Source of the DNA: Thiotrichaceae bacterium
GTDB lineage: Bacteria; Pseudomonadota; Gammaproteobacteria; Thiotrichales; Thiotrichaceae
Direction: 5' to 3'
Length of the DNA stretch: 37,549 nt
Assembly: GCA_026991755.1 (NCBI GenBank)
Contig: JALXAX010000182.1
Location: 490 to 38,038 of the forward strand
Shown here: piece by piece, positions 10,573 to 35,374 of the stretch
Layout of the letters: each line of letters opens with the position of its first letter
Position numbering within the stretch: the stretch's first letter is position 1
Position numbers and translations under genes: made by a program
The notes under the pieces: generated by a model
Databases searched by the model: none
Seen by the model: only the letters and a program-made list of their open reading frames with translations
Told to the model about the DNA's origin: nothing

Positions 10573-12404
10573 AACAAAGGAACACCCAATATACCCCTGT
10601 ACGTTTTTCTCATCTTACTTCTTATGCGGGTATAGGAGCCATTGTACGTGGTACTGAAGACCGCCTAATGGTGCTAGTAGATACTCGTTATTGGCAAAAC
10701 AAATCTGGCAAACCCTCCACAGAGAAAATCAATTATGTCACTCGTGTTCAGATTGCTCTGGAAATAGAAAAAGAGCTACACATGCCACCAACAGCAAAAG
10801 AAAATGATCATGGCTTATCCGGTTCTTATTTGCCTGCTGTTTTATTTCCTCGTTATGCTGTATGTAAAAAATGTGGGCTTTTACATAACCAACCTTGGAG
10901 TAAACAACAGCAAAATTTAGACGAGAATGTATATTGCGAATCCAAGAGCTGTGAGAATAGCGCCTTAGAGCAAGTAACATGGTGTGCTGTAAGTAGTAAA
11001 GGTCACTTGGCAGAAGTACCTTGGCACACTATTTGTCACTTAACGTCATCTATTAAATGTGAGCCTGATTACTCCTCTGATTATCTCGAACTAACCAGCA
11101 ATCAGAATGGTAAACGAATCATTAGGTGCAGAAAATGTCATACCCATCATTTTTTTGAGAAGCTAAAAACATTAAATCATATCAACCAGCACCAACCATG
11201 GATTTTTGAGGGTTCACCAGAATTAGACGAAGCTGATAAAATAGAGATTCTAGAAGTCAATAATCCTGGAGTCTATTTGCCTGAACGTGTGAATGCACTT
11301 GTTATTCCGCCAGAATCAAGAATAAGCCAATCAACGGCAGTAGACAGGTTGTTTAGAAATTCTAAGCTTTGCAGTGAAATAGATGCGATAAAAATACCGT
11401 TACGACGTAGAGGAAAAATAAAAGAAGTTGCACGACTATTAAGAACATCACCATTAGAAATTAAACAAGCACTTCAGGAGATTAAAGAGGGTTATCCTTG
11501 GCTTGATGACTTTCCAGTCGGAGATCTTTATGAGGATGAATACAAAGCATTCCTTGAACCTATAGAAGACCAAAGGGAAGATGAGGATTTTGTAACTGAT
11601 CACCTAACTAGTAAATGGAAAGCATTGTCCTCACCAGAAGTACCAAAAGATCTGGCTACAATTATTGATGCAGTTGATCAGCTTGTTTGTGCAAGGAGAC
11701 TTAGAGAGATACAAGTTTTTAAAGGGTTTTATCGCATAAAAGAAAAAACCAAGCTTGTTCCCCCTGATTTGATCGGAAAGAGTGAATGGCTACCTGCCAT
11801 TGAGCTTTTTGGCGAAGGAGTTTTCTTTACTCTAAATGAAAGCCTATTGCAAGAATGGGAAATTAAAACTGAAATTGTTAATAGAGCTGATGAAACTAAG
11901 AAACGCTACGAGAAGGCAACAAATGTTCATCTATTTCGAGAACCTGAAGTAAACTCAAGGTTTTTACTGCTTCATACTTTATCTCATCTGCTAATACGAG
12001 AACTGGAAGCAACAGCAGGCTACCCTGCTGCTTCTCTAAAAGAAAGAATCTACAGCTCTAGAGCAAAAAAAATGGCAGGTATTTTAATATATACCACGGT
12101 ACCCGACATCGCTGGTTCTCTAGGAGGGATTATTAATAGTGCAGAACCCACTACTTTTTTAACCATTTTAGACAATGTATTTAAAAAAGCACGATGGTGT
12201 TCACTGGATCCAGTTTGTACAGAGCATGAAGGTCAAGGTCCAGGTTGGTTAAATAGAGCAGCTTGCCATGCTTGCTCGTTAATACCGGAGCCGTCGTGTG
12301 AATACAGCAATGTATTTTTGGACAGGGTTTTTATCAAAGGTAACGAAGAAAGTGAGATTCCAGCATTCTTGGACTTTGAATTACAAACCAAAGAGGGAGA
12401 ATAA
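10569..12404 (+). CDS. drmB: DrmB-like DUF1998 protein
   Basis: 611 aa. The N-terminus FSHLTSYAGIGAIVRG matches the start of DrmB proteins. A zinc-ribbon-like pair is visible at Cys99/Cys102 and Cys123/Cys128. The C-terminal DUF1998 region (about 455-590) has LLLHTLSHLLIRELEATAGY, then GSLGGI, then a cysteine cluster at 544, 550, 566, 569 and 577 followed by NVFLDR. DUF1998 proteins partner DrmA helicases; in DISARM the DrmAB complex senses and loads onto DNA. It overlaps drmA by ATGA and the next gene by TAATG, so the proteins are likely made in a fixed ratio. Confidence 0.85.
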   Translation: MKQRNTQYTPVRFSHLTSYAGIGAIVRGTEDRLMVLVDTRYWQNKSGKPSTEKINYVTRVQIALEIEKELHMPPTAKENDHGLSGSYLPAVLFPRYAVCKKCGLLHNQPWSKQQQNLDENVYCESKSCENSALEQVTWCAVSSKGHLAEVPWHTICHLTSSIKCEPDYSSDYLELTSNQNGKRIIRCRKCHTHHFFEKLKTLNHINQHQPWIFEGSPELDEADKIEILEVNNPGVYLPERVNALVIPPESRISQSTAVDRLFRNSKLCSEIDAIKIPLRRRGKIKEVARLLRTSPLEIKQALQEIKEGYPWLDDFPVGDLYEDEYKAFLEPIEDQREDEDFVTDHLTSKWKALSSPEVPKDLATIIDAVDQLVCARRLREIQVFKGFYRIKEKTKLVPPDLIGKSEWLPAIELFGEGVFFTLNESLLQEWEIKTEIVNRADETKKRYEKATNVHLFREPEVNSRFLLLHTLSHLLIRELEATAGYPAASLKERIYSSRAKKMAGILIYTTVPDIAGSLGGIINSAEPTTFLTILDNVFKKARWCSLDPVCTEHEGQGPGWLNRAACHACSLIPEPSCEYSNVFLDRVFIKGNEESEIPAFLDFELQTKEGE

Positions 12405-13594
12405 TGGGCATACGAAACTTTCAACTACCAGGAGAAGAAGACTTAAACAAAGATCAGGACAGAGTGCTTGCTCTCCCTGAAGAGGGTCAATATTTGATAG
12501 TAGGTGGGCCTGGATCAGGGAAATCAGTGGTTGCTATCCTAAGAGCATTAAAGTTTCAGGACAACAACGACTATGTGTTTCTTGTTTTTAATCATGTATT
12601 AGAACGATCTACTTGTATGTTAGTTGATACTCGGCTTCGTGGAACAACCCTATCTAAATTTATCTACAAGCTGCATTGGCACTTATTTAAAGAGTTCATG
12701 CCTGAAGTTGAAAAATATAAACCTGACTATGACTTTTTAATCCAAAAGATTGAGAAATTAGAATACAAAGCACGAACAATGCACCTGATTATTGACGAGG
12801 GACAGGATATGCCTCCTAAATACTATCAAGCATTACAATATGCGGGTTATGAGAACTTTTTTATCGTTGCTGATCAGAACCAACAAATCACTGATGACCA
12901 TTCAAGCCGTCAAGAGCTTACCGATGTATTAGCACTAGAACCTGAGGACATCATAGAGTTAAAAATAAACTATCGAAATTCTCACCCGATTGCACTTTTT
13001 GCAAACCACTTCTATACAGACAAAGCCAGTCCACCTCCTGAATTACCAGATAGAGCATCATTGGAAACTCCAACTCTCTATCGTGAGATAGATAATAAGG
13101 CTAGCTTTGAAATGATACTTAGAGAGGCAGATAAAGATAACAGAAAGTTAATTGGTGTAGTCGTTGCCAATGATGGAATTATGAATAGTTATATTAATGG
13201 CATTAGAACATTGGAAATTTCATTAGACAACTTGCCACCGGTAGTTTCTAGCTACTCAAGTAAGGATAAAAAAACAGTCAATATTGATTTCTCGCAAGGT
13301 GGAATTGTTGTATTGAATGACAAATCTATCAAAGGTCTTGAATTTGATATTGTCTACATTATTTTAGATGGGTTTAGAACTTACAATAATGATAAAACCA
13401 GCATGAAAAAACGTTTATATGTAATGAGTTCTAGGGCTATTGATAAGTTAATCCTTATCAGCACCCAAAGTGAATCACCCTTGATATCCCTATTGCCAGA
13501 AGATAAGACCATTATGAAAACGGTTCGTAATCTTGAGAAACCAGCAGAACTAGCAATTGCCACGGATGATTTCGAAGATGATATTCCATTTTAA
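12404..13594 (+). CDS. UvrD/Rep-like SF1 helicase, compact
   Basis: 396 aa. Q-motif-like LNKDQDRVLALP, Walker A GGPGSGKS (34-41), motif II DEGQD (131-135), motif III VADQNQQI (155-162), motif IV INYRNSHPI (arginine at 191), motif V SIKGLEFDIV (308-317) and motif VI YVMSSRAIDKLILI (339-352). All helicase motifs are present, but at under 400 residues it lacks the 1B/2B insertions of UvrD or Rep. The C-terminus is acidic (DDFEDDIPF). It begins inside the drmB stop (TAATG) and its own stop overlaps the next ATG the same way. Likely an ssDNA-dependent ATPase/translocase of the operon's complex; a DISARM role for such a helicase is inference. Confidence 0.85.
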   Translation: MGIRNFQLPGEEDLNKDQDRVLALPEEGQYLIVGGPGSGKSVVAILRALKFQDNNDYVFLVFNHVLERSTCMLVDTRLRGTTLSKFIYKLHWHLFKEFMPEVEKYKPDYDFLIQKIEKLEYKARTMHLIIDEGQDMPPKYYQALQYAGYENFFIVADQNQQITDDHSSRQELTDVLALEPEDIIELKINYRNSHPIALFANHFYTDKASPPPELPDRASLETPTLYREIDNKASFEMILREADKDNRKLIGVVVANDGIMNSYINGIRTLEISLDNLPPVVSSYSSKDKKTVNIDFSQGGIVVLNDKSIKGLEFDIVYIILDGFRTYNNDKTSMKKRLYVMSSRAIDKLILISTQSESPLISLLPEDKTIMKTVRNLEKPAELAIATDDFEDDIPF

Positions 13595-15120
13595 TGAGAA
13601 CAAAAATTATGGTTGCAAAAAGGAAAATGGTACGCTGGTTATTCCCCACCAACACTAATAATCTTCGTATGATACTGGCTCAAGGATTATTAACTTCACC
13701 AGAGGGTTTTAGTAAATATTATAAAGATAGCCTGAGTGACTTTGATGGATACTTACCACTATTTAACCTCCAAATACCAGTAGAAGCATTAAATAAAGCA
13801 ACTAGTGAAGCGGGTCATTTGACCCCTTGCATACTGGAGTTTGACCTTAAGGGAGTATCAGGTCAGGTAAAAATACGGGAGAAAGAGTCTTATACCGACA
13901 TTAAACTTGAATCTGTTTCTGCCGATTCAATAGCAGAAGGAGAACAACTTAATTTTCCTTTACCGATGCCTCTTGGTTGCATATCTAAAGTGATTTTTAG
14001 GTCTAAAAAAGACTTGGAGGCATTCAAAAAAGATGTCAGCACACGATCCAATGTTGTCTTAAATAATCTAAAACTTCATCACACTATAAAAGATTCCAAG
14101 CTATTTGAAAAACAGCTCAAAGATACACAGTCAGAGCTAAAAGAGTTACTAAAAATAAATGCTAGTGATTCAATATTAAAACCCGAAGTTACAGAGTGCG
14201 GAGTGGTCTCTTCGACACAAGTTGTCAAACCAAACTACCCAGTAATTTATGCTTATGGAGGTTTGCTATCACTCCTTTTTTATCACGCAAAAAATGGAAA
14301 AATTAGCCATGATTTCTTAACTTGTTTCTCAAAGGGAAAAACAAGTGAAACAGATGACTCAACCGATCAGTTTATCCATAAGTTTATCTATGATTTTTTT
14401 TATGGAGATATTGATGACTCTCAATCTAGAAATAAAATACTAAAAGGCATTATTTCTTCTTGTATTGACTCGAAAGATTTTAAAAATATAATTATTGATT
14501 TCCTCAGAACAAGTGATTGGAATGATAAAAAAGCTGAGAAAAGATCAATAGAATTAGCAGGAAAGTTGCATGATTATGCTTCCAACAGCTCACTATCAAC
14601 ATCAGAGTGGTTTGATAGTGCCAAACCTGGTATTGAAAAAATATTATTAATGCTGTTTACCAGGGAAGACTCAGAATCTTTTATTGAGTATCAAAACCCT
14701 AACATTACGTTTTCCGAGCATGAGCAGTTGTTATTCTCTATGTTTTTTGGAATCAGGGATAGCTTTATTAAATCCCCATCCTTCTTAAAAAAATATAATG
14801 GCTTGCAAAGCTTTGTTTCATACATGATGGCGAACTATACCCATACAAAAATGAATAGTGGTATTTCATTTAAGGAGATAAAAGCACCGAAAACTGTTTG
14901 GCAGTTTGTTGATGGAAAGCTATCAAAACCTATTGTTAAATCTTTCAACCTTGAATCATGTGTCAATACTATTATGCCAAAAAAAGATTTTCAGCAAATA
15001 AAAGGGAAAAGTATCTATAGTGGCTACTATGAGCCAACTTATGAAGTAGTTGGTAAAAAATACTACGAAATAATGTCAAGCAAGAAAATCACAGACACCG
15101 ATTATAACAAGCTGAAGTAA
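13594..15120 (+). CDS. Unrecognised 508-aa protein of the drm-like operon
   Basis: I do not recognise the family. No signal peptide, transmembrane segment or enzymatic motif stands out. The N-terminus MVRWLFPTNTNNLRMILAQG begins a region rich in conserved-looking aromatic residues (YYKDSLSDFDGYLPLF); a lysine/glutamate-rich helical stretch, probably coiled coil, spans about residues 160-190 (SKLFEKQLKDTQSELKELLK). The C-terminal half is helical and lysine-rich. The coding sequence is visibly A/T-rich. It starts within the stop codon of the SF1 helicase (TAATG), so it is co-translated and probably part of the same complex; an adaptor, sensor or effector role is possible but unproven. Confidence 0.75.
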   Translation: MRTKIMVAKRKMVRWLFPTNTNNLRMILAQGLLTSPEGFSKYYKDSLSDFDGYLPLFNLQIPVEALNKATSEAGHLTPCILEFDLKGVSGQVKIREKESYTDIKLESVSADSIAEGEQLNFPLPMPLGCISKVIFRSKKDLEAFKKDVSTRSNVVLNNLKLHHTIKDSKLFEKQLKDTQSELKELLKINASDSILKPEVTECGVVSSTQVVKPNYPVIYAYGGLLSLLFYHAKNGKISHDFLTCFSKGKTSETDDSTDQFIHKFIYDFFYGDIDDSQSRNKILKGIISSCIDSKDFKNIIIDFLRTSDWNDKKAEKRSIELAGKLHDYASNSSLSTSEWFDSAKPGIEKILLMLFTREDSESFIEYQNPNITFSEHEQLLFSMFFGIRDSFIKSPSFLKKYNGLQSFVSYMMANYTHTKMNSGISFKEIKAPKTVWQFVDGKLSKPIVKSFNLESCVNTIMPKKDFQQIKGKSIYSGYYEPTYEVVGKKYYEIMSSKKITDTDYNKLK

Positions 15121-15121
15121 T

Positions 15122-15137
15122 CCCCCCCAAAAAAAAA
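15122..15137. repeat. Homopolymer tracts C7 then A9 before the NERD-helicase gene
   Basis: Seven C followed by nine A lie in the 22-bp gap, the only non-overlapping junction in the operon. No ribosome-binding site is visible between the preceding stop (15120) and the ATG at 15143, apart from the purine run itself. Such tracts are prone to slippage and to sequencing error. Confidence 0.8.
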
Positions 15138-15142
15138 TATTT

Positions 15143-16723
15143 ATGAACGTTATCCCCAGCCACCCTTATAAGACAGATAGTAATGCAGAGTATCGTCTTT
15201 TTAAGAAGCTACAAGAGGCTTTCCATCCTGATAATTCCTATATAGCCCTCCACTCATTAAATCTAACCCATCACAAAACCAAACGATTTGGTGAAGCTGA
15301 TTTTGTTATTTTGTGCCAGTACGGTTTATTTGTTCTTGAAGTCAAAGGTGGTGGCATATCATATAGAGATGGAAACTGGTATACCGTCAATAGGAGTCAG
15401 CAAGAATTTAAAATTCAAGACCCTTTTAGACAAGCCGAAGGTGCATTGCATGCTCTGAAAGATAAGATCAAAGACCACTTTTCATCTTGGTCAATTCCTA
15501 TTGGCTATGGTGTTATTTTCCCTGATGTTTCATGGAAAGTTACCAGCTCTGAATGGGCTTCTCAGACGATATGTGACTCTTATAAATTCCGAAATATTGA
15601 ATCATGGTTAAGAAATTTTTTTCGTTACTGGCAACAAAAACCATACAATCAGGCAAAACTCACAACCGAGCAAATTAAACAACTAAAAGCCTTTATTCGC
15701 CCAGACTTTGAGCTTGTTGAGCCTCTGCATAGCCGTATTGATAGATTAAGTGAACAAGCCGTCAAGCTAACAAAAGATCAGTATAAATACCTTGATATTG
15801 CTACTGCAAACAAGCGTGTACTTTGTTCGGGCGGTGCAGGAACGGGAAAGACTTTTTTGGCTCTTGAACTGGCCAGGCGATTAGCTAAAGAGGATAGGAG
15901 CGTTGTGCTGGTTTTCAAATCAAGCTGGCTTAGGTATTACTTACAAAGTTTAATATCCAATGAATATGTAACCATCTCAACCATTGAGAGTATTGCAATA
16001 GATCAAAAGCGAGCAGGCATTGATTTATATGATGTTTTGATAGTAGACGAAGGACAGGATTTGTTTGATTTTGATTCCATTACTTTACTTGAAAGTAGTT
16101 TAAAGGGTGGTTTAAAAAAGGGGGAATGGTATATCTTCCATGATGTAAATAATCAGGCAGGCTTGTTTATAGAAACAAAAGCCGAGGTGCTGGAATTACT
16201 CGAAAGCTACAAGCCCATTAATATCCCATTAACCACTAATTGTCGAAATACTAAGCCTATTATTGAAACTATAAAAGATAAGCTATCTCTTGACATGGGA
16301 AATAAAGGTACAGGATTTGGTCCAGAAGTGGATTTTTTTCTTGAAGATTTTACCGATGCGCCTGCGACCAAACTTGCGGCTAAGCTGACTGAGATTATTA
16401 AAAGTGGTGTACATTCTAGCTCTATAACTATTCTTTCACCGTTACCGTATAAGCAGTCAAATCTACGTAATTTATCAGATAAATTAAAAGGCCAGATTGT
16501 TGAACTAGACGATTACTCAATTCGTAATTTCCCTATATCCAATATAAGCTTTTCAGAAATAAAAAATTTTAAGGGACTGGAAAATGAAGTAATTTTGCTA
16601 ATAGACTTCCCAAAACAAGAGAATGCAACACCTATGGAAAGCAAGGTGTTGCACTATGTTGCAATGACAAGGGCTAGATCATTATTATGTGTTTTTTGGT
16701 CTGTACCGAAAATTGAAAAATGA
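15143..16723 (+). CDS. NERD nuclease-SF1 helicase fusion
   Basis: 526 aa. The N-terminal NERD domain (residues ~14-125) has the PD-(D/E)xK-like residues Glu17 (NAEYRLF), Asp53 (GEADFVI), Glu66 and Lys68 (LEVKGG), and Gln98 in FRQAEGAL. The SF1 helicase follows: TKDQYKYL (210-217), Walker A GGAGTGKT (230-237), motif II DEGQD (302-306), FHDVNNQAG, motif IV TNCRNTKPI (arginine at 368), motif V NFKGLENEVI (475-484) and motif VI YVAMTRARSLL (505-515). Catalytic residues of both domains look intact, so this is the most likely DNA-cutting component of the operon. It is the last gene and follows the 508-aa gene by 22 bp. Confidence 0.88.
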   Translation: MNVIPSHPYKTDSNAEYRLFKKLQEAFHPDNSYIALHSLNLTHHKTKRFGEADFVILCQYGLFVLEVKGGGISYRDGNWYTVNRSQQEFKIQDPFRQAEGALHALKDKIKDHFSSWSIPIGYGVIFPDVSWKVTSSEWASQTICDSYKFRNIESWLRNFFRYWQQKPYNQAKLTTEQIKQLKAFIRPDFELVEPLHSRIDRLSEQAVKLTKDQYKYLDIATANKRVLCSGGAGTGKTFLALELARRLAKEDRSVVLVFKSSWLRYYLQSLISNEYVTISTIESIAIDQKRAGIDLYDVLIVDEGQDLFDFDSITLLESSLKGGLKKGEWYIFHDVNNQAGLFIETKAEVLELLESYKPINIPLTTNCRNTKPIIETIKDKLSLDMGNKGTGFGPEVDFFLEDFTDAPATKLAAKLTEIIKSGVHSSSITILSPLPYKQSNLRNLSDKLKGQIVELDDYSIRNFPISNISFSEIKNFKGLENEVILLIDFPKQENATPMESKVLHYVAMTRARSLLCVFWSVPKIEK

Positions 16724-19912: not shown

Positions 19913-19993
19913 GTAGGTTGGGCTGAGGAACGAAGCCCAACATAGTTGATTAGGTTTATGTTTGTTGGGCTTTCTGGCGTCAGCCCAACCTAC
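19913..19993. repeat. REP doublet unit, copy A
   Basis: 81-bp unit bounded by GTAGGTTGGGCT at one end and its inverse at the other. It holds two hairpins: GTTGGGCT/AGCCCAAC in each half, with loops GAGGAACGA and TTCTGGCGTC. GTAG lies just outside each hairpin, the tetranucleotide recognised 5' of REP hairpins by E. coli RAYT. The RAYT stop codon (TAG, 19990-19992) lies in its last bases. Confidence 0.9.
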
Positions 19994-20523
19994 CTTTCGC
20001 CAAAAGACTGCATTGGTGATAATTTGCTTTCATCGCCCCAATCAGCCGTTAGAAGACCTTTGTCAATAAACGAGTGTATGGTTGAAAGCTCCCAATCAAT
20101 AGCACGTTCAACATAATCATGCTTTACTGGATTATAGTGAATGTAATCAACATGCCTTGCAAAATCATTTTCATCACGAATTAAATGCTCCCAGTAACGT
20201 CTTTGCCAGATACCTCGCTCACGTTTTGATTCTCTACTTGATTTGATTTTTTCAGTCTTGGGTATCTGACGAGAAAACCCAGATTTTATTAACATCAAGC
20301 GGGTAGCAAAATCATTATCACCCTCTGGTAAAGTGACCATCAAATGTAAATGATCAGGCAATACCACTAGCGCATCAAGTATAAAGGGATGATGGTGTTT
20401 GACCTTATTCATACTGGCACGCAGTTTATCAAACTCATCCACCAACAACGTACTTTGGCGGTCTGCTAAGTTGATAGTGAAAAAATAGCTTCCACCTTTA
20501 ATGTCTGCACGTCTGTATTTCAT
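19990..20523 (-). CDS. rayT: REP-associated tyrosine transposase (RAYT)
   Basis: 177 aa, Y1-transposase fold of the IS200/IS605-related HUH nucleases. The HUH motif is PDHLHLMV (His58, His60). The catalytic tyrosine is probably Tyr127 in DYIHYNPVKH, and WQRRYWEHLIRDENDF is family-typical. RAYTs nick and rejoin single-stranded REP DNA and are held responsible for spreading REP sequences. The gene is flanked at 3 and 17 bp by REP units A and B, the standard REPtron layout; it appears intact, with no frameshift. Confidence 0.93.
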   Translation of the reverse strand: MKYRRADIKGGSYFFTINLADRQSTLLVDEFDKLRASMNKVKHHHPFILDALVVLPDHLHLMVTLPEGDNDFATRLMLIKSGFSRQIPKTEKIKSSRESKRERGIWQRRYWEHLIRDENDFARHVDYIHYNPVKHDYVERAIDWELSTIHSFIDKGLLTADWGDESKLSPMQSFGER

Positions 20524-24956: not shown

Positions 24957-24984
24957 TTGACAAGTTATTATATTCGAATATACT
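24957..24984 (+). promoter_or_regulatory. Near-consensus sigma-70 promoter with an overlapping palindrome
   Basis: TTGACA (24957-24962), 16-bp spacer, TATACT (24979-24984). The 14-bp perfect palindrome TATATTCGAATATA (24969-24982) overlaps the spacer and -10 and could be an operator. Followed by a leader of roughly 65-70 nt and an AGGAG site before the ATG at 25059. Confidence 0.7.
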
Positions 24985-25058
24985 TATATACGAATTAAGA
25001 AACACTCTGTTAGTCATAATTAAAAAATATTTAACAAATTTCGTTAGGAGAAATTATC

Positions 25059-25553
25059 ATGAAAATTCAAACAATCGCATTCGCAGCATTAGTAGCACTT
25101 TCTGGAACAGCTTCTGCAGACTGGTTCGACGGCATGAACAACGGCGCAGGAAATGGTCAAGCAACAGGTAACGGTCAAGCTTGGACTACTGGAAACACTA
25201 AAGGTGACGGAAACGGCGCTGGAAAAGTAAACGGATGGGGAGCTGGTAAAGGCGACGCAGACGGTGAAGTAGACTTCTCTATCACTTTCAAAGGTAAGGG
25301 TCGTACTAACATGGATACTAAAATGGCTGCTGACGGTCAAGGCAATGTAACTGGAAACGGTCTTGCTGATTGGACTGGCGCTGGTAACGGAGCGGGTAAC
25401 ACAGCTGCAAACGCTACAGGTTCTAACACAACTAACGGTGCTGGAACATTCCCAGGAAACAACAACAACGCTCCTGTATACATGCCTGCTCCTCAGATGC
25501 AGCGTCCAGCAGCAGTTGCTCCTACAGCAGCAGTTAAAGCTGAAACTAAGTAA
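25059..25553 (+). CDS. Gly/Asn-rich exported protein, sulfur-globule-protein-like
   Basis: 164 aa. Signal peptide MKIQTIAFAALVALSGTASA, cleavage likely before DWFDG. The mature protein is dominated by Gly, Asn, Ala and Thr in short GN/GA-containing repeats (NGAGNGQATGNGQ, KGDGNGAGKVNGWGAGKGDA, GAGNGAGNT). A segment DGEVDFSITFKGKGR is the kind found in sulfur-globule envelope proteins of sulfur bacteria, and the Pro/Ala-rich tail is PVYMPAPQMQRP. No cysteines. Codon use is strongly restricted (GGT, AAC, GCT, GTA), which together with the promoter, the AGGAG site and the terminator points to high expression. The sulfur-globule role is a composition-based guess; a cell-surface or matrix protein is the alternative. 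Confidence 0.7.
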   Translation: MKIQTIAFAALVALSGTASADWFDGMNNGAGNGQATGNGQAWTTGNTKGDGNGAGKVNGWGAGKGDADGEVDFSITFKGKGRTNMDTKMAADGQGNVTGNGLADWTGAGNGAGNTAANATGSNTTNGAGTFPGNNNNAPVYMPAPQMQRPAAVAPTAAVKAETK

Positions 25554-25572
25554 GATTTATCTTATTAGTTAA

Positions 25573-25638
25573 CTACCTCTTATAACAATAAAAATAGAGA
25601 GGTAGCATCAAAAAGGCCAGCATTATGCTGGCCTTTTT
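25573..25638 (+). terminator. Two consecutive hairpins, the second a strong rho-independent terminator
   Basis: First hairpin CTACCTCT (25573-25580) / AGAGGTAG (25598-25605). Second AAAGGCCAGCA (25612-25622) / TGCTGGCCTTT (25626-25636) with a 3-nt loop and a T run. It ends the Gly/Asn-rich gene; the first hairpin may protect the mRNA 3' end. Confidence 0.88.
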
Positions 25639-26100
25639 GTGTTTAAAATAAGTTGATATAAATAATCTGTGGGTAGTTTAGTCGGCTATTGCCTGACGAA
25701 TGAAGTATATAATGAGCGGTGAGAGTAAACCTAAATTCCTCAGTTAACCGCTTATGATTCTTATTAAGATGTTGATATTAATTAGCATTATAGTATTTTC
25801 GGTCTTCACTTTAAGAGTGAAGGCGCTACAATATGTAGAGCAACCCTATTTAACCTGATTAGCTATATGAAAAAACTCATTAAGGATCAACCATTAATTC
25901 CTTTTTTCATTACGCTACTCAGGCTAAAAGAATCACTCTACATATCGTCTAACTGAGGATTTTAGAGTAAAGCGATTTAACCTCCTCTTTGAAAAGGTGG
26001 TTTTAACCAGCTAAAAGGGTATCTCTATTAATTCTGGTCGGAGTTGCTGTGACTTAGCTGAGCTTTAGTAAAGCTTAGAAGCTACAGCAGATAGAATTTG
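25639..26100. other. Intergenic region, 462 bp, no supported gene
   Basis: Contains a 7-bp hairpin CTTCACT/AGTGAAG (25804-25810/25816-25822), a 10-bp inverted repeat ATATGTAGAG (25831-25840) / CTCTACATAT (25936-25945), and AGCTTT-AGT-AAAGCT near 26060-26074 just beyond the glycosyltransferase stop. Two tiny frames (25754-25858, 34 aa; 25867-25956, 29 aa) lack ribosome-binding sites. It could be an RNA gene or a decayed repeat; I cannot decide. Confidence 0.4.
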
Positions 26101-27480: not shown

Positions 27481-27642
27481 CCTGAATCCGTCACTTCACT
27501 ACGGTATAGGGCATAAGAATATTGATTTATAACGGGTTTAAAAATTCCCCGCTTATCGAAGGGTGAAGCTAAGGTTTTTTATAAATCAATGCTAAACCAA
27601 TCTCTTAACCCTATTATTCGTATTGAACGTAACGGATTCAGG
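27481..27642. mobile_element. MITE-like palindromic element, family A, copy 2
   Basis: 162-bp element whose sequence is the reverse complement of copy 1 at 156-320, with scattered differences. Ends CCTGAATCCGTCACTTCA (left) and the inverse of CCTGAATCCGTTACGTTCA (right). TAAA flanks both sides (27477-27480, 27643-27646), consistent with a short A/T target duplication. Shared inner segments include GAAGGGTGAAGCTAAG and GCTAAACCAATCTCTTA. It ends 25 bp before the MoxR start codon. Confidence 0.85.
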
Positions 27643-27667
27643 TAAAACAAATAACAAGGTAGATGAC

Positions 27668-28666
27668 ATGGCAGACATTGAGAACACTTCAAATGATAAA
27701 AGTAACCATCAGGCTTTCCTAGCCATTCGAGAGCATCTTCAGCAGCGCATTATTGGCCAGCAAGTATTGGTTGACCGTTTGTTGATAGCGCTATTAGCCG
27801 ATGGACATTTGCTAGTAGAAGGTGCACCAGGATTGGCGAAAACGACGGCTATTAAAGAATTGGCAGCGGTGTTAGAAGGTGATTTCCATCGTCTACAGTT
27901 TACTCCCGATTTATTACCAGGTGATTTGACGGGAACCGATGTATATCGCCCAGAAACAGGTGACTTTGTATTCCAGCAGGGGCCATTATTTCATAACCTT
28001 ATTCTGGCAGATGAGATTAACCGTGCGCCAGCTAAAGTCCAATCTGCTTTATTAGAAGCGATGGGCGAACATCAAATTACCGTTGGTAAAACGACTTACT
28101 CACTACCTCGACCGTTTTTAGTCATGGCGACTCAAAACCCCATTGAGCAAGAAGGCACGTATCCGTTACCTGAAGCGCAATTAGATCGTTTCTTAATGCA
28201 TGTGATGATCGACTACCCATCCGCTGAAAACGAAAACGCTATTTTAGAATTGGCACGCCAGCAAGCTAGTGAACAATATAAGCCGGTTGATAGCACTCAG
28301 GCACAGTTGAGTAATGAGCAAGTCAAACAAGCCCAACAAGAAATATTAGCGATTCACATGGCAGCTCCTGTTCAAGAATATTTAGTACAACTGGTACTAG
28401 CTAGCCGTGATCCATCCCCCTATAGCCAACAGCTCGCTCGTTGGATTAGCTATGGCGGTAGCCCTCGTGCGACGATTGCGTTAGACCGTTGTTCTCGTGC
28501 ACATGCATGGTTGAATGGTCGTGATTATGTATCGCCTGAAGATGTTCAAGCCGTTGCGCATGAAGTGTTACGTCATCGAGTTTTGCTGTCTTATGAAGCC
28601 GAAGCAGATGGCGTAACGACTGATCATATTATTGATGAGCTTATTAAGAACATACCTGTAGGTTAG
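27668..28666 (+). CDS. moxR: MoxR-family AAA+ ATPase
   Basis: 332 aa from the ATG at 27668, preceded by AAGGT. An upstream in-frame TTG at 27623 is rejected because its first codons are the end of the family-A element. Walker A EGAPGLAKTT (51-60), Walker B LILADEINRA (111-120), sensor-1 MATQNPIEQEGTYPLPEAQLDRF, and lid-domain YGGSPRA. MoxR ATPases act as chaperone-like partners of VWA proteins. First gene of the operon, with DUF58, DUF4381, two VWA genes and batD downstream. Confidence 0.95.
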   Translation: MADIENTSNDKSNHQAFLAIREHLQQRIIGQQVLVDRLLIALLADGHLLVEGAPGLAKTTAIKELAAVLEGDFHRLQFTPDLLPGDLTGTDVYRPETGDFVFQQGPLFHNLILADEINRAPAKVQSALLEAMGEHQITVGKTTYSLPRPFLVMATQNPIEQEGTYPLPEAQLDRFLMHVMIDYPSAENENAILELARQQASEQYKPVDSTQAQLSNEQVKQAQQEILAIHMAAPVQEYLVQLVLASRDPSPYSQQLARWISYGGSPRATIALDRCSRAHAWLNGRDYVSPEDVQAVAHEVLRHRVLLSYEAEADGVTTDHIIDELIKNIPVG

Positions 28667-28689
28667 GGTAGTTAGGGTAGAAGGGAAGA

Positions 28690-29793
28690 GTGAGCAGAAT
28701 GTTTAGCAGTCTCAAACAACAATTTGGACGAATAATAAAGACGACTGATTCCGAATCATCTTCGTTGTCTCATACGGTGCGTCCAACACAAAAGCAAAGC
28801 TATGCCGATGCTCAAGTCCAAGCTCAAACCAGCAACGGCACATCCGTAAGTGTGGATGATCTGATTGCCATGCAGCGCTATGTACGCAAAATAGACTTAT
28901 CAAAACGCTCACCTGCTTTGGCGTCAACGACAGGTAATCACTTCTCGCGCTTTCGCGGTAGGGGCATGGATTATCAAGAGTCACGAGTTTACCAAGCGGG
29001 TGATGATATTCGTAGTATGGACTGGCGAGTGACTGCACGTGCAGGAAAACCCCATACCAAGCTCTATCAAGAAGAACGAGAACGACCTGTTGTGTTGCTG
29101 GTCGACTTTAGCCCGAGTATGTTTTTTGGTTCAGTTAAGTCACTTAAGTCTGTGGTGGCTGCACAAGTCTCGGCCTTGCTAGGTTGGGCTACTGCAAAAA
29201 AAGGGGATCGTGTGGGGGCATTGCTTATCAATGGTGATCATAAAGAAATAGCTCCTAAAATGGGTAAACGTGGCGTGCTTAATCTGATTCGAGAGTTGGT
29301 TAAATTTTCTGATCCAAAAACAGGTTTAAGCACCCTCAAAAAAAGCAGTCACCTTAATGACGAACTACAACGCTTAAGAAGAATTGCTAGACCAGGCTCG
29401 TTAGTGTTTTTAATCAGTGATTTCTACACCATCAATGAAGAGACACAACGTCACTTATTACGCTTGCGTCAACATAATGATGTAGTAGCCATCCAAGTAG
29501 TTGACCCATTAGAACAATCAGCCCCACCTGCGGGGCGTTATAGCGTCACCAATGGAGATGAAGAAGGAGTGCTAGATATGCGGTCTCATAAAGACCAGCA
29601 GCACTACAATGCATTTTTTAGTCAGCACCATCGCAAGCTCAAAGAAGCGATGCGTAAAAACAAAATCCCATTATTAACGATCTCGACAGCAGATGGTGTT
29701 GCGCTACGTTTACAAGGTTATTTTGGTGGAGTGAAGAGACAATCGGTTACGGCTAGTAAACGTCAAACCAGTAAAAATGAGGAGGCTGCATAA
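28690..29793 (+). CDS. DUF58 protein (VWA-like)
   Basis: 367 aa from GTG 28690, or 364 aa from ATG 28699; AAGGG lies 4 nt before the GTG, so the choice is open. DUF58 core: SRFRGRGMDYQESRVYQAGDDIRSMDWRVTARAGKPHTKLYQEE followed by the VWA-like strand VVLLVDFSPSMFFG (a degenerate MIDAS, DFSPS) and LVFLISDFYTI. No signal peptide or membrane segment. DUF58 genes almost always accompany moxR. The C-terminus is basic and Gln/Lys-rich. Confidence 0.92.
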   Translation: MSRMFSSLKQQFGRIIKTTDSESSSLSHTVRPTQKQSYADAQVQAQTSNGTSVSVDDLIAMQRYVRKIDLSKRSPALASTTGNHFSRFRGRGMDYQESRVYQAGDDIRSMDWRVTARAGKPHTKLYQEERERPVVLLVDFSPSMFFGSVKSLKSVVAAQVSALLGWATAKKGDRVGALLINGDHKEIAPKMGKRGVLNLIRELVKFSDPKTGLSTLKKSSHLNDELQRLRRIARPGSLVFLISDFYTINEETQRHLLRLRQHNDVVAIQVVDPLEQSAPPAGRYSVTNGDEEGVLDMRSHKDQQHYNAFFSQHHRKLKEAMRKNKIPLLTISTADGVALRLQGYFGGVKRQSVTASKRQTSKNEEAA

Positions 29794-30380
29794 TGGCAAA
29801 CCCTCAAGTGCAAACACCTCAGCACCCGCAAGAAATACAGCTAGCGGATATTCACATTCCTGCAAAACCTTCTGCTTGGCCGCCTGCTTATGGGTGGTGG
29901 ATTTTATTGGCGCTGCTTTTAGCGTTAATTACAGTGATAAGCTTAAAAATAATTCGATACAAAAAATTAAAGAAACAGCAGAAACTAACCTTACAAATGT
30001 TGCATGTGCTGGAGAAAAAACTACAACAAAATGCAGCAACAGAAGTGTTAGCGGAGATTAATATTCTACTCAGACGATTAGCGTTAATGCACTACCCACG
30101 TAAAAAAATAGCCAGTTTAACGGGTAAAGAATGGCTTAATTTTCTGGATAAAAGCCTCGATAGCAGTGGCAAAGCGAAAGACTTTAGTCAGGGTGCTGGT
30201 CGTATTCTAGGGGATGCTCCTTATCTAGCAAAACTGCCTGATAATGCAGATATTAAAGGTTTAAGCAAAGTCATAAAAAAATGGGTAAAGAACATTTCAG
30301 TAAAAGAGTTAGCGCATCATTCGGTTAACTATTCAAGTAAGCGCTCAGTTAAACCTTCAAGCAAGAGGGCTAAAGCATGA
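29793..30380 (+). CDS. DUF4381 membrane protein
   Basis: 195 aa. N-terminal IHIPAKPSAWPPAYGWWILLALLLALITVISL: the conserved Pro/Trp-rich lead-in and one transmembrane helix typical of DUF4381. Then a basic cytoplasmic helix and a domain with LRRLALMHYPRKKIASLTGKEWLNFLDKS. Found between DUF58 and VWA genes in such operons; probably a membrane anchor or adaptor. Overlaps the DUF58 gene by 1 bp and the next gene by 4 bp. Confidence 0.9.
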   Translation: MANPQVQTPQHPQEIQLADIHIPAKPSAWPPAYGWWILLALLLALITVISLKIIRYKKLKKQQKLTLQMLHVLEKKLQQNAATEVLAEINILLRRLALMHYPRKKIASLTGKEWLNFLDKSLDSSGKAKDFSQGAGRILGDAPYLAKLPDNADIKGLSKVIKKWVKNISVKELAHHSVNYSSKRSVKPSSKRAKA

Positions 30381-31411
30381 ATATAGAATTTGCTTTGCCT
30401 TGGGTTTTTTGGCTATTACCGTTGCCTATGCTAGCGGCACTCTTGCTCCCTCGCGCAGTGGTTTCATCTTCAGGTGCGTTAAGAATTCCTTTTTTTGAAG
30501 CCATGAAAGCCAGTATGGCTAAACAACAAAGCCATCGCTCTCTTTTCTGGTTAATACTGGCAGTTATCGCGTGGCTAGCATTAGTCACCTCTGCGGCAAG
30601 ACCACAGCTAATTGGCGATACGATTCGAATGCCAGTGAGTGGACGAAGCTTAATGATGGCGGTGGATATTTCAGGCTCCATGCAAGAGCAGGATATGTTT
30701 ATAAAAGGTCGTCCTGTCTCACGTCTTACGGCGGTTAAGCAAGTGGCGGGTGACTTTATAGAACATCGAGAAGGTGATTTGATGGGCTTAATTTTGTTTG
30801 GAACCAATGCCTATCTACAAGTGCCTTTAACGCAAGACCGAAAGACGGTAAAGCTGTTATTGGATGATGCCATATTGAGAATAGCAGGGCCAAAAACGGC
30901 TATTGGCGATGCGATTGGTTTAGCGGTAAAGCGTTTAAGAGAGCAACCCGAAAAAAACCGTGTGCTAGTTTTATTAACCGATGGCGCTAATACAGCGGGA
31001 ACCATCAAGCCACTTAAAGCAGCCGATTTAGCGGCACAAGAAGGAATTCGTATTTATATTATTGGTGTGGGTACTGATGGAGGGGTTATTAGAACACCTT
31101 TTGGTATGCAGCGCGTACGCGGTGGTGATTTAGATGAGCCATTGTTAAAAGACATTGCCAGTAAAACTTCGGGTGAGTATTTTCGAGCCAGAGATGTACA
31201 GAGCTTACAAAAAATCTATGCGCTATTAGACGAAATCGAACCTGCGTCTAAGGATGACATAACCTATCGCCCTGTGGATGAGCTATACCATTGGCCTTTA
31301 GCGCTTGCTCTGTTGTTAAGTGTTTGGATTGTCTTTGGAATAAATGGAGTGAGTGGGATTAGTCGCAGTACCCGCAACGGCCGCAAAAAGGGAGGGCAAA
31401 ACCATGTTTGA
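30377..31411 (+). CDS. batA: BatA-like von Willebrand factor A protein
   Basis: 344 aa. Two N-terminal transmembrane segments (about 8-27 and 54-72), a VWA domain with intact MIDAS (AVDISGSMQ, Asp97-Ser101; later LLTDGANTAG), and a C-terminal membrane helix near 305-325. The VWA domain lies between the membrane segments and probably faces the periplasm. A metal-dependent adhesion fold is expected to bind a partner protein remodelled or assembled with MoxR. Overlaps batB by 8 bp. Confidence 0.93.
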   Translation: MNIEFALPWVFWLLPLPMLAALLLPRAVVSSSGALRIPFFEAMKASMAKQQSHRSLFWLILAVIAWLALVTSAARPQLIGDTIRMPVSGRSLMMAVDISGSMQEQDMFIKGRPVSRLTAVKQVAGDFIEHREGDLMGLILFGTNAYLQVPLTQDRKTVKLLLDDAILRIAGPKTAIGDAIGLAVKRLREQPEKNRVLVLLTDGANTAGTIKPLKAADLAAQEGIRIYIIGVGTDGGVIRTPFGMQRVRGGDLDEPLLKDIASKTSGEYFRARDVQSLQKIYALLDEIEPASKDDITYRPVDELYHWPLALALLLSVWIVFGINGVSGISRSTRNGRKKGGQNHV

Positions 31412-33539
31412 ACAACTAGGTTCTGCGTTATCACAGTTTCATTTTTTACAGCCTGCTTGGTTGTTGGCTCTCATCCCTTTAGCTTTAATTTATTGGTTAG
31501 TAGTTCACAAAAAAACGGCACATAGCGACTGGGATAAAGTCATTGATGCACATTTATTACAGGTACTATTAGCCAAAAGTGAAACAAAAAAGGCAAAGTC
31601 ATTCTCTGCTTTGTTGATGTTAGCGTGGCTGATAGCTGTGTTGGCGCTAGCCAACCCCGTATGGGAGAAAAAGGCGATCCCTGTCTTTCAGACGAACACC
31701 GCTAGAGTTATCGTATTGGATTTATCACGCTCAATGAATATCGCCGATATAAAACCTTCTCGATTGGAACGTGCTAAGTTCAAAATTAAAGATATTTTGG
31801 CTAGACAGGAAGAAGGTCAAACAGGGCTTGTGGTGTTTGCAGGAGATGCTTTTATCGTCACGCCGCTGACACGAGATGCAGATACCATTAACTCGTTGTT
31901 AGCTGCACTAAAAACAGAGATTATGCCAGTACAAGGTAGTCGAGTTGATTTAGGATTACTCAAAGCTAAAGAGTTATTACAGCAAGCAGGTGTTGCAAAG
32001 GGTCAAGTTTTATTAATAGCGGATGGCGCACGTAAAGCAACGTCATTATTGGCTGTAGAAGCATTACGTGATAAGGGTCACAGGGTTTCTGTTTTGGGTG
32101 TTGGTACCCAACAGGGTGGGCCGATTCCTAATGTACGAGGGCGTGATTCGAAGCCCATTATTGTGCCTTTACAGAAGAAACTATTACAGCAAATTGCTGA
32201 GCAGGGTGGTGGTCAATATCGTGATTTGAGTACAAGTAGTGCGGATATTGATCACTTGCTTGCCTCCCTCTCAACAGCTTCTTCGCAGGGAGCTAATAAG
32301 GTAGAAAGTATTGATAATTCGAGTAATGACTGGCAAGCACAAGGACCATTATTGGTTTTGTTGTTATTACCCTTAGCGGCAATAGCTTTTAGAAAAGGCT
32401 GGTTATTAACGGTGGGCTTGATAGTGATAACGCTTGGTCAACCTCAACCTGTAATGGCTTCAGCGTGGGATAGTTTGTGGAAACGGCAAGATCAATTAGC
32501 CGACCAAGCATTACAAGCAGGAGATTATGAACAGGCCGAAGTTTTGGCAGAAGACCCGTTAAGACGAGGCAGTGCTGCCTTTAAAAAAGGTGACTATGAA
32601 AAAGCGCTGAGTGATTTTAGTGAAGCGCAAGGCGTTGATGCGGCTTATAACAAGGGTAATGCATTGGCTAAATTGAAAAAATATGAGGATGCGATCAAAG
32701 CTTATGATGAAGCGTTGAAACAGCAACCTGATATGCAAGATGCGACTAACAATAGAGCAATGATTCAGGCACTTTTAGATAAGAAAAAAGAGCAAGAAAA
32801 GCAGCAACAGCAGTCAAAGCCTGAAGATAAGAATAAAAATAAAGAGCAGGATAAGAAAAAAGATCAAAATAAGGACCAGCAACAAGATCAAAACCAGCAG
32901 GACGCGAAAGAAAACTCACAGCAAGGTGGTGATAAAAAGGATCAGGAGCAACAAGAGCAAGGAAAGCAAGGTCAAGAAAAACAAGACCAGAAAAATAAAG
33001 AAGGTAATAATAAAGAAGGCGAAGAAGGAAAAAAAGATTCTGAGCAATCATCGGAAGAAAACCAGTTTGCGAAAGCTAACGAAGAGAAGGATAAAGAGCG
33101 AGCAAAGAAAGGAGAGGAAAAGGAAGCAGAAAAAGCTAAACAACTAGAAGAGTTGGCAAAACAAGCGGATGAAAATCAGAATAAAAAGGCAGAAGAAGAT
33201 GGGGGTAAGGATAAGACAGCAAGCGCTGAGCAAGTAGGAAAAAAAGAAGGAGAGCAGAGTAAAGATAAAGATAATGATAAAGAGGCGAAAGAGGACGAAG
33301 CCAAAGTAATAGCTGAACAACAGCAAGGTGATAAAAAAGATGCTGAAGCGAGTCAGGAGCAAGAAAAAGCAGAACATCAAGCAATGGCTGAAGCACTAAG
33401 TAAAGAAGAAAAAATTGCCGCAGAGCAATGGCTACGTCGTATTGAAGATGACCCCGGTGAATTATTGAAACGTAAGTTTAGATACCAATATAAGCGCCGT
33501 AGGCAGTCAGCGGGTTCAGGAGATTCTCAACCATGGTAA
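31404..33539 (+). CDS. batB: BatB/BatC-like VWA-TPR protein with long K/E/Q-rich tail
   Basis: 711 aa from the ATG at 31404, which has GGGAGGG upstream; the longer open frame is rejected. Two transmembrane segments, VWA domain with MIDAS DLSRS (106-110), further membrane segments near 315-350, then TPR repeats (SAAFKKGDYEKALSDFSEAQ, AYNKGNALAKLKKYEDAIKAYDEALKQQPDM). Residues ~460-665 are almost only Lys, Glu, Gln, Asp and Asn, predicted as a charged coil or disordered linker. A short ordered C-terminus (AAEQWLRRIEDDPGELLKRKFRYQYKRR) is typical of these proteins. The fusion combines Bacteroides-type BatB and BatC. Confidence 0.92.
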   Translation: MFEQLGSALSQFHFLQPAWLLALIPLALIYWLVVHKKTAHSDWDKVIDAHLLQVLLAKSETKKAKSFSALLMLAWLIAVLALANPVWEKKAIPVFQTNTARVIVLDLSRSMNIADIKPSRLERAKFKIKDILARQEEGQTGLVVFAGDAFIVTPLTRDADTINSLLAALKTEIMPVQGSRVDLGLLKAKELLQQAGVAKGQVLLIADGARKATSLLAVEALRDKGHRVSVLGVGTQQGGPIPNVRGRDSKPIIVPLQKKLLQQIAEQGGGQYRDLSTSSADIDHLLASLSTASSQGANKVESIDNSSNDWQAQGPLLVLLLLPLAAIAFRKGWLLTVGLIVITLGQPQPVMASAWDSLWKRQDQLADQALQAGDYEQAEVLAEDPLRRGSAAFKKGDYEKALSDFSEAQGVDAAYNKGNALAKLKKYEDAIKAYDEALKQQPDMQDATNNRAMIQALLDKKKEQEKQQQQSKPEDKNKNKEQDKKKDQNKDQQQDQNQQDAKENSQQGGDKKDQEQQEQGKQGQEKQDQKNKEGNNKEGEEGKKDSEQSSEENQFAKANEEKDKERAKKGEEKEAEKAKQLEELAKQADENQNKKAEEDGGKDKTASAEQVGKKEGEQSKDKDNDKEAKEDEAKVIAEQQQGDKKDAEASQEQEKAEHQAMAEALSKEEKIAAEQWLRRIEDDPGELLKRKFRYQYKRRRQSAGSGDSQPW

Positions 33540-35374
33540 ATCTATTTAAAAAGCTAACATTGAGTGTGTTCTTGGTGCTAATGGCGAGTAACACGTGGGC
33601 AGGTGTGAGAGCGTATCTTGATCAAACCACGGTTAATGTGGGTGATCCTGTAACGCTGACGATTGAAAGCGACAACCGCGCAACGCAAGCACCAGACCTC
33701 AATCCGTTAAACCAAGACTTTGATATTGTACATACTACTCAGAGTTCTCAATCAAAATGGGTAAACGGAGCATCATCGTTCACTAAGTCCTGGATGGTTA
33801 GGCTATTACCTAAGCGTCAAGGCGAGATAACAATCCCTGCCTTTTTATTAGGTCAGGAAAGTACCGCACCTTTAAAGCTAATCGTTGCCGAAATTCCAGC
33901 GGATCAAGTTAAAAAAAATAGCCAGTTTATGACGCTGGAAGCAAGTGTTGATATAGGAAAATCCTTGCCTTATGTTCAACAACAAATTCCCTATGTGCTT
34001 AAGCTATTTACCGATGATTCTATTGAGTCAGGCGAGGTTTATCCTCCCAATATCGAAAATGCAATTATAGAAAAGCTCTCAAGAGATAAGCAATATAGTG
34101 TTGTGCGTAATGGTCAAAAGCTCAATGTGTTGGAAAGGCATTACGTTATTTCAGCTGAGAAAAGTGGCAAACTTATAATCCCACCCGCAATATTTAAGGG
34201 TGAGCAAACACTACCAAGCGATCAACAGTCACGTGGTCTTGGTAGGGGCGGGTTTCCCGATAGTATTTTTAACGACCCTTTCAACGACCCTTTCTTTAAT
34301 TCGGGTTCTTTTGGAAGTTTGTTTCGAGAGCCAGGCAAGCCTGTAACAACACGTAGTGATTCTATAGAAATAGATATTCAGCCCTTGCCTACCGATTACA
34401 AAGGGAATAGTTGGATACCCGCAGAAGACTTAGTCATTAAGGATAGTTGGCAGAATAGCAACCCCGTTTTTAAAGTTGGTGAGCCTATAAATCGTACCTT
34501 AACCCTACAAACAAAAGGGCTGACTGGTTCGCAGATTCCTGATGTAGTTGTCGATGAGCCATCTAACATCAGGGTGTACTCTGATAATGCGGATACGCAA
34601 ACACAAACCGATGGCAATACCGTTTATGGCATCCGTAGACAACAATTGAACTATATACCCAATACTGCGGGGAAGACGACAATCCCAGCAGTAAACATTG
34701 ATTGGTGGAATGTAATCACTAAGCAACAAGAAACCTTTACGTTACCTGCGCGAGAAGTAGAGATATTGCCAGGGAAGGATGGTGCATCAGTAACTTCTAA
34801 GGCGAGTCAGTCTGAGCTTGGGGCAGGTGACAGTAGCAAAAACTCTGCTCAGGAAGATCCCGTTCAAGCTACTGAAGACTCAATAAAGAAGCCGCGATCA
34901 TGGGGAGTAATAATAGCGATGGGCTTGGGAAGTATCCTGGGGATTGGGTTGTTAATCTTTCTTTGGAAATGGAGTCATCGAAAAAGTACAACGGTAGAGA
35001 AGAAGATTATAGCTACCAAGAAAGCCGTAATGAGTGCTGATAAATTGCTGAATCAGCTACAACAGGCGTGTAGCCAGAATGATAATAAACAAGCGGCTAG
35101 TGTTTTATTACAACTCGCAGAAGCTAAATGGAACGATAACCCGCCTAAGAATTTGGGAGCTTTAGCTGATCGTTTACAGAAAGGATTACAGGGTGGGAAT
35201 ACTGCTGAAATGATAAGGGGCTTGGATAAAAGCCTTTATGCAGAAGCATCTGAAGCCACTAAATGGCAGGGTCAATTATTATGGAATGCCATGAAGCAGG
35301 GCTTATCCACATACGATGTTAAAAATACAGAGTCTACTGAAGTAGTAGATAACCTATATCCTCACCGAGATTAA
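33533..35374 (+). CDS. batD: BatD-like oxygen-tolerance protein
   Basis: 613 aa. Signal peptide MVNLFKKLTLSVFLVLMASN, cleavage near TWA|GVRAYLD. Periplasmic beta-sandwich domains start with AYLDQTTVNVGDPVTLTIES; a Gly/Phe/Asn-rich spacer is GRGGFPDSIFNDPFNDPFFN near 240-260. One transmembrane helix (VIIAMGLGSILGIGLLIFLWK, about 460-480) precedes a cytoplasmic helical C-terminus. Last gene of the moxR operon, overlapping batB by 7 bp. BatD proteins are periplasmic partners of the VWA proteins; the aerotolerance name comes from Bacteroides and need not describe the role here. Confidence 0.93.
   Translation: MVNLFKKLTLSVFLVLMASNTWAGVRAYLDQTTVNVGDPVTLTIESDNRATQAPDLNPLNQDFDIVHTTQSSQSKWVNGASSFTKSWMVRLLPKRQGEITIPAFLLGQESTAPLKLIVAEIPADQVKKNSQFMTLEASVDIGKSLPYVQQQIPYVLKLFTDDSIESGEVYPPNIENAIIEKLSRDKQYSVVRNGQKLNVLERHYVISAEKSGKLIIPPAIFKGEQTLPSDQQSRGLGRGGFPDSIFNDPFNDPFFNSGSFGSLFREPGKPVTTRSDSIEIDIQPLPTDYKGNSWIPAEDLVIKDSWQNSNPVFKVGEPINRTLTLQTKGLTGSQIPDVVVDEPSNIRVYSDNADTQTQTDGNTVYGIRRQQLNYIPNTAGKTTIPAVNIDWWNVITKQQETFTLPAREVEILPGKDGASVTSKASQSELGAGDSSKNSAQEDPVQATEDSIKKPRSWGVIIAMGLGSILGIGLLIFLWKWSHRKSTTVEKKIIATKKAVMSADKLLNQLQQACSQNDNKQAASVLLQLAEAKWNDNPPKNLGALADRLQKGLQGGNTAEMIRGLDKSLYAEASEATKWQGQLLWNAMKQGLSTYDVKNTESTEVVDNLYPHRD

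Follow-up and report, generated by a model that had tools for sequence, protein, structure and literature searches.

A predicted Gly/Asn-rich secreted protein of a Thiotrichaceae bacterium, very probably a sulfur globule coat protein, and a palindromic promoter box common to its family and to sulfide-oxidation genes

In the genome of a Thiotrichaceae bacterium (assembly GCA_026991755.1; 3.66 Mb, 207 contigs) we found a single-gene unit whose predicted product is very probably one of the proteins that coat intracellular sulfur droplets. The gene belongs to a family that is linked by profile to the sulfur globule proteins of PF17228, co-occurs with the dsr genes of sulfur oxidation, and has in its promoters a palindromic box that is also found at genes for sulfide oxidation. 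The reading that we strongly favor is that of a Gly/Asn-rich, cysteine-free secreted coat protein of the globule type, predicted to be exported through the Sec route and presumably co-expressed with sulfide-oxidation genes by means of the box and a putative repressor. Sulfur globule coats have been the subject of few studies beyond the purple sulfur bacteria. The protein is of a kind already known, and the box is the more interesting of the two; it offers a direct handle on how the cell times coat production with sulfur production.

Organization of the gene and its expression signals

The window (the whole stretch of DNA analyzed, 37,549 nucleotides of contig JALXAX010000182.1) carries the gene as a compact unit between positions 24957 and 25639, comprising a promoter, an AGGAG site, the open reading frame and two 3' hairpins. 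Its features are as follows.

24957-24984, + strand: sigma-70-type promoter TTGACA-16-TATACT, 11 of 12 positions matching the consensus
24969-24982, + strand: palindrome TATATTCGAATATA, exact, one copy in the window, partially overlapping the conserved box
24972-24987, + strand: conserved promoter box ATTCGAATATACTTAT (consensus ATTAGAATATTCTAAT), top matrix match in the window, overlapping the -10
25046-25050, + strand: ribosome binding site AGGAG, read from the sequence, 8 nt upstream of the ATG at 25059
25059-25553, + strand: sulfur-globule-protein-like gene (164 aa, predicted export), from the open reading frame, paralogues, and family and profile matches
25059-25118, + strand: signal peptide MKIQTIAFAALVALSGTASA, by sequence inspection, with a start conserved in the paralogues and an inferred cleavage site
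25233-25322, + strand: conserved core GWGAGKGDADGEVDFSITFKGKGRTNMDTK, near-invariant across five paralogues
25573-25605, + strand: first 3' hairpin, by folding
25609-25639, + strand: second 3' hairpin, intrinsic-terminator-like (-22.3 kcal/mol, z -6.4)

A sequence-only reading of this DNA had listed the promoter, the palindrome over its -10, the AGGAG site, restricted codon use and a double hairpin as signs of an abundant product, and each of these signals was found in place. The -35 (TTGACA, 24957-24962) and the -10 (TATACT, 24979-24984) are separated by 16 nt, and the palindrome TATATTCGAATATA extends four bases into the -10. The effective number of codons is about 31.9, compared to 46-55 in nine other genes of the window, a figure that is rough because the gene is short and its composition skewed. 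The two hairpins together fold with -33.8 kcal/mol (z -8.8). A terminator pattern scan reported none at this 3' end, our guess being that it missed the terminator because the T run base-pairs with A's.

A low-complexity, predicted secreted protein with a conserved core

The mature chain (144 aa) is rich in Gly (20.8%), Ala (16.0%), Asn (13.2%) and Thr (11.1%) and contains no Cys, as the sequence-only reading had stated; cysteine is likewise absent from all 47 aligned members of the family (alignment A2, which leaves out L075 and also L012, whose protein is identical to that of L093). The description of the chain as repetitive holds in the sense of low complexity and fails in that of strict repeats, with TRF detecting a single array (12 bases, 1.9 copies) in the open reading frame. 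Five paralogues, four of them besides the window copy, are encoded in the genome, and their alignment reveals a signal peptide, a near-invariant core GWGAGKGDADGE[VI]DF..FKGKG that includes the previously singled-out DFSITFKGKGR, and variable Pro/Asn/Tyr-rich tails. The N-terminal pattern MK..ALSGTASA is common to the paralogues by inspection and corresponds to a putative Sec-type signal peptide. At the scale of the 47 members the invariant residues are G65, D68, G69, F73, F77 and K78.

Among solved structures no sequence match to the window protein was detected at E <= 1, and in NCBIfam just one "serine-rich protein" model was hit, far under its cut-off. An AlphaFold2 model built from the 47-member alignment was uninformative (pLDDT 43.8, pTM 0.17).

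Relation to known sulfur globule proteins

A search against profiles of sulfur globule families, proposed in the sequence-only reading, tied the family to PF17228. The window protein alone scores 14.6 bits, under the gathering cut-off of 26.7, and is therefore not filed under PF17228 itself. On the other hand, relatives exceed this cut-off (L071, 32.2 bits; L072, 32.0; and, in genome G050, L077 and L078 with 60.4 and 49.8), and PF17228 is matched at E <= 0.01 by 11 of the 47 aligned members. In the reverse direction, matches of the window-family profile within the class score with PF17228 at 56.8 (L152), 62.2 (L153) and 25.7 (L140) bits. A profile-profile comparison of the family with PF17228 gave 97.7% (E 1.6e-12), spanning signal peptide and core, compared to 18.3% for a reversed control, so that a relationship to established globule proteins is found at the level of the family through both the profile-profile and the reciprocal matches. 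Eighteen of the 47 members also hit TrAA12 through its Gly-rich stretch, and those examined singly fall short of that model's cut-off; we take these weak matches as a warning on composition-driven false matches.

The SgpA/SgpB-type proteins of PF17228, such as SgpA (Alvin_1905) and SgpB (Alvin_0358) of Allochromatium vinosum (loci as given in the available part of PMC10386293), are small, secreted, Gly-rich, encoded in multiple copies and found in sulfur-oxidizing hosts, and the window family, in its case with predicted secretion, is alike in these respects. Common to both is a core GWGxGxGDxxGxxDFxxxxxG after the signal peptide, although the window family is Asn/Thr/Ala-rich with an FKGKG core and the SgpA/SgpB type is Gly/Tyr/Pro-rich, a comparison made via profiles and not through identities to the A. 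vinosum proteins. Through this common core, the extended profile joins the SgpA/B type with a large clade of Asn/Gly-rich proteins. The same part of PMC10386293 counts six predicted sgp genes in Thiothrix caldifontis and one in Thiolinea disciformis; like the window genes, and judging from these counts, the predicted sgp genes of Thiotrichaceae are multi-copy, predicted to be periplasmic and found in the same bacterial family. They are probably the same genes as the window family, as far as a passage confined to counts can indicate, and because such genes are already in print the window protein belongs to a known kind. By its description, the window protein can also be likened to ALG67575.1 of Beggiatoa leptomitoformis, a 15-kDa globule envelope protein linked to globule formation: in the part of PMC7356093 available, it is induced about tenfold by thiosulfate, and disruption of its gene coincides with the loss of both globules and lithotrophic growth.

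Family distribution and co-occurrence with dsr

Two findings had been named in the sequence-only reading that would speak against a coat, namely a genome lacking sulfur oxidation genes and homologues confined to non-sulfur bacteria. A search of the genome revealed aprA, a gene similar to sulfide:quinone oxidoreductase (SQR) and two separate dsrA loci, each with dsrB (G000:C112:14384-15595 and G000:C180:302-1513), so that the dsr pathway of globule-forming sulfur oxidation is encoded in the host. With regard to homologues, family matches were found in 30 of 57 genomes, our own included, 29 of them among the 36 from the same bacterial family and one among the 21 from outside, and all 14 named matches belong to Thiotrichaceae, Thiothrix or Cocleimonas. 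The single annotated match found for the family, a homologue of the window protein named "hypothetical protein", is carried by a plasmid of Thiothrix fructosivorans (NZ_CP072750.1:140330-140617).

Within the 36 same-family genomes, the protein and dsr occur together in 26, the protein alone in 3, dsr alone in 2 and neither in 5 (p-value: 0.0026), a dsrB below the cut-off or a partial dsrA being scored as presence and weaker matches of sulfite-reductase type being ignored. The protein is found without dsr in G002 (69% complete), G021 (83%) and G035 (92%), and dsrA without the window family in G022 and G025; in genus g7 the protein is absent from 5 of 5 genomes, yet G022 has dsrA. Across 369 genomes of the class, 31 have a family match, and dsrA is present in 27 of these carriers compared to 90 of 338 non-carriers (p-value: 3e-11). 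Leaving out the own family, 24 of 28 carriers have dsrA (p-value: 7e-10), both class p-values being overstated because the genomes are not independent. The carriers in which dsrA was not found are G253, G272 (55% complete), G331 and G333. Outside the own family, 48 places were matched in the class, 41 of which were fetched and 7 left out; the 40 distant members inspected by eye all begin with a signal-like segment and contain a form of the core. The homologues are thus not limited to non-sulfur bacteria, and both results, together with the profile link to PF17228, support the interpretation of the product as a putative globule coat protein.

A second globule-like family

The neighborhoods of the window-family genes contain no recurrent sulfur gene, except for a second family of predicted secreted proteins, with the motif GEWKMGP...EWTPMYWM, beside one paralogue. 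On contig C204 a gene of this family lies 417 bases downstream of the paralogue on the same strand, a pairing repeated in G005. The second-family genes adjoining a window-family gene are the following.

L103:2158-2640, - strand: second-family gene with the motif
L094, from base 4833, + strand: second-family gene with the motif

The second family (32 places) occurs in 29 of the 57 genomes, exactly the 29 same-family carriers of the window family, and was absent from all 7 same-family genomes without the window family and from 21 of 21 others. We suspect it to be of the CV3/SgpC type.

A conserved box in the promoters of the family

The upstream regions of the family genes have in common a palindromic box, ATTAGAATATTCTAAT, with the layout ATTAG-N6-CTAAT. 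At up to 3 mismatches, 34 of 47 family upstreams contain it, compared to 0.66 expected from dinucleotide shuffles. Among 272 control upstreams drawn from these loci none has it (5 of 294 until the 22 in overlap with family genes or their promoters were removed); these counts leave out L012, the duplicate of L093, and L110, with 5 bases of upstream sequence. Since the consensus was taken from the family upstreams, sets outside its construction are fairer tests, and the box was found in 7 of the 12 second-family upstreams examined and in 10 of the 40 distant class members. Four of the five paralogues in the genome have it at up to 3 mismatches, the one at L103 being without it.

The window copy has 3 mismatches and would be weak if judged by mismatches alone; scored with a matrix of 33 sites from which the window was excluded, 24972-24987 ranks first in the window with 15.0 vs 9.0 for the next place. 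The palindrome TATATTCGAATATA noticed in the sequence-only reading is not significant by itself (26 of 100 shuffles contain a match at up to 2 mismatches) and was dropped as the operator in favor of this neighboring box. Thirty-three of 34 promoters have the box overlapping their best -35/-10 pair, partly by construction because pairs were looked for in its vicinity, and this overlap favors a repressor. MerR promoters have longer spacers than 16-18, and activation of MerR type was dropped, good promoter pairs having been found at spacers of 16-18, the sole range searched.

Targets of the box and a candidate regulon

At up to 1 mismatch, the box was found at 41 places in the 57 genomes, compared to 2 for the reversed pattern. 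Thirty-one of these are in the same bacterial family, and none in its seven genomes without the window-family protein. Of these 31 places, 11 precede window-family genes and 2 second-family genes, while 8 precede sulfur-type or other genes, which encode SQR-like oxidoreductases (in our genome and in G003), a rhodanese, a TusA-like protein, YgaP-like membrane proteins (two genomes), an FadL-type outer-membrane protein and a cytochrome c. Another 2 lie at contig ends with flanks resembling family promoters, and 8 have no clear target. The SQR-like gene matches the SQR type III model with E 1.4e-36, below the cut-off. The contig-end boxes of G004 (L197:3054 and L198:3053) are exact copies, which suggests that further family copies were lost in assembly. 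Boxes directly upstream of orthologous small secreted proteins were seen at L201:2818 (G006) and L210:3018 (G024).

Among repressors of the SqrR/BigR type, ArsR proteins released by sulfane sulfur, SqrR of Rhodobacter capsulatus controls sqr and a rhodanese gene according to the accessible text of PMC9995734, the same kinds of genes as those preceded by the box, and for this reason we propose a repressor released by sulfane sulfur. The box differs in form from the SqrR operator, ATTC-N8-GAAT as deduced in the portion of PMC9774250 available. An ArsR motif scan of the fetched loci near box targets detected a single ArsR gene, in G001 beside a family gene (HTH_5) and by eye without a C-terminal cysteine, and a cognate regulator was not found among these loci. 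Our literature search returned no paper containing the box core, and a limited search for sgp with a regulator and for SqrR with sulfur globules, covering parts of the texts, returned no description of such a regulon.

In the mechanism that we envisage, the Sec route would export the structural protein to the periplasm, where the window protein, its four paralogues and the second globule-like family may build a coat around stored elemental sulfur. A repressor would occupy the box over the -35/-10 region of globule-type and sulfide-oxidation genes when sulfide or sulfane sulfur is absent and depart in its presence, and this release would lead to the production of coat and sulfide-oxidizing enzymes together. 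We interpret the box as the target of a repressor in a sulfur-storage regulon, one that probably responds to sulfane sulfur. For the more specific proposal, that ATTAG-N6-CTAAT is an undescribed operator through which one sulfane-sulfur-released repressor controls the two coat families and the genes of SQR, rhodanese, TusA and YgaP type in Thiotrichaceae and some other dsr-bearing Gammaproteobacteria, we consider the chances evenly balanced.

Alternative explanations

The points that we count against the favored reading are the PF17228 score below the cut-off, the low complexity of the chain, the dsr exceptions, the paralogue at L103 without a box, the three mismatches of the window box, the negative outcome of the regulator scan in the fetched loci and the uninformative structure model. 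Were the likeness to globule proteins a matter of low-complexity composition only, the sub-cut-off score of the window protein and the weak matches to TrAA12 and to the serine-rich model would be expected; however, a control profile from reversed mature chains, identical in composition, matched our own genome only, through signal peptides, and lost the profile-profile match past the signal peptide, whereas the true matches align along one ordered core. This control largely refutes the composition explanation, which we hold to be very improbable. A composition of this kind is also compatible with a secreted matrix protein, and filamentous, rosette-forming members are described for Thiothrix, Thiolinea and Thiofilum (in the part of PMC10532065 at hand), so that the protein could belong to the extracellular matrix, sheath or holdfast, possibly amyloid-like, without a role in sulfur storage. 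The remote homologues in many other dsrA-bearing families of the class, the PF17228 link and the presence of the box at sulfur-oxidation promoters all argue against this, and we regard it as improbable.

A more serious alternative, still an unlikely one, accepts the family and the box and assigns the box to another regulator, for example of Crp/Fnr type, sensing oxygen, nitrate or redox state instead of sulfane sulfur. Crp sites have a 5-6-5 layout, which is that of ATTAG-N6-CTAAT, and a Crp/Fnr-like neighbor cluster was recognized by eye in 4 of 54 loci (L092, L097, L103 and L104). The dissimilarity of the box to the deduced SqrR site (PMC9774250, in part) fits this alternative as well. Against it stand the position of the box over the promoter pair, with the reservation on its construction given above, and the SQR-like and rhodanese targets, whose counterparts are under SqrR in R. 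capsulatus in the text available of PMC9995734.

Other features of the window

Elsewhere in the window, positions 7327-16723 contain a DISARM-like defense island with DrmA (E 1.7e-202), DrmB (E 1.3e-61), a UvrD-like helicase, a protein without PADLOC match and a NERD-helicase. By eye, the - strand at 19990-20523 appears to encode a REP-associated (RAYT-type) transposase, and 27623-35374 resembles a MoxR-DUF58-von Willebrand (Bat-type) operon.
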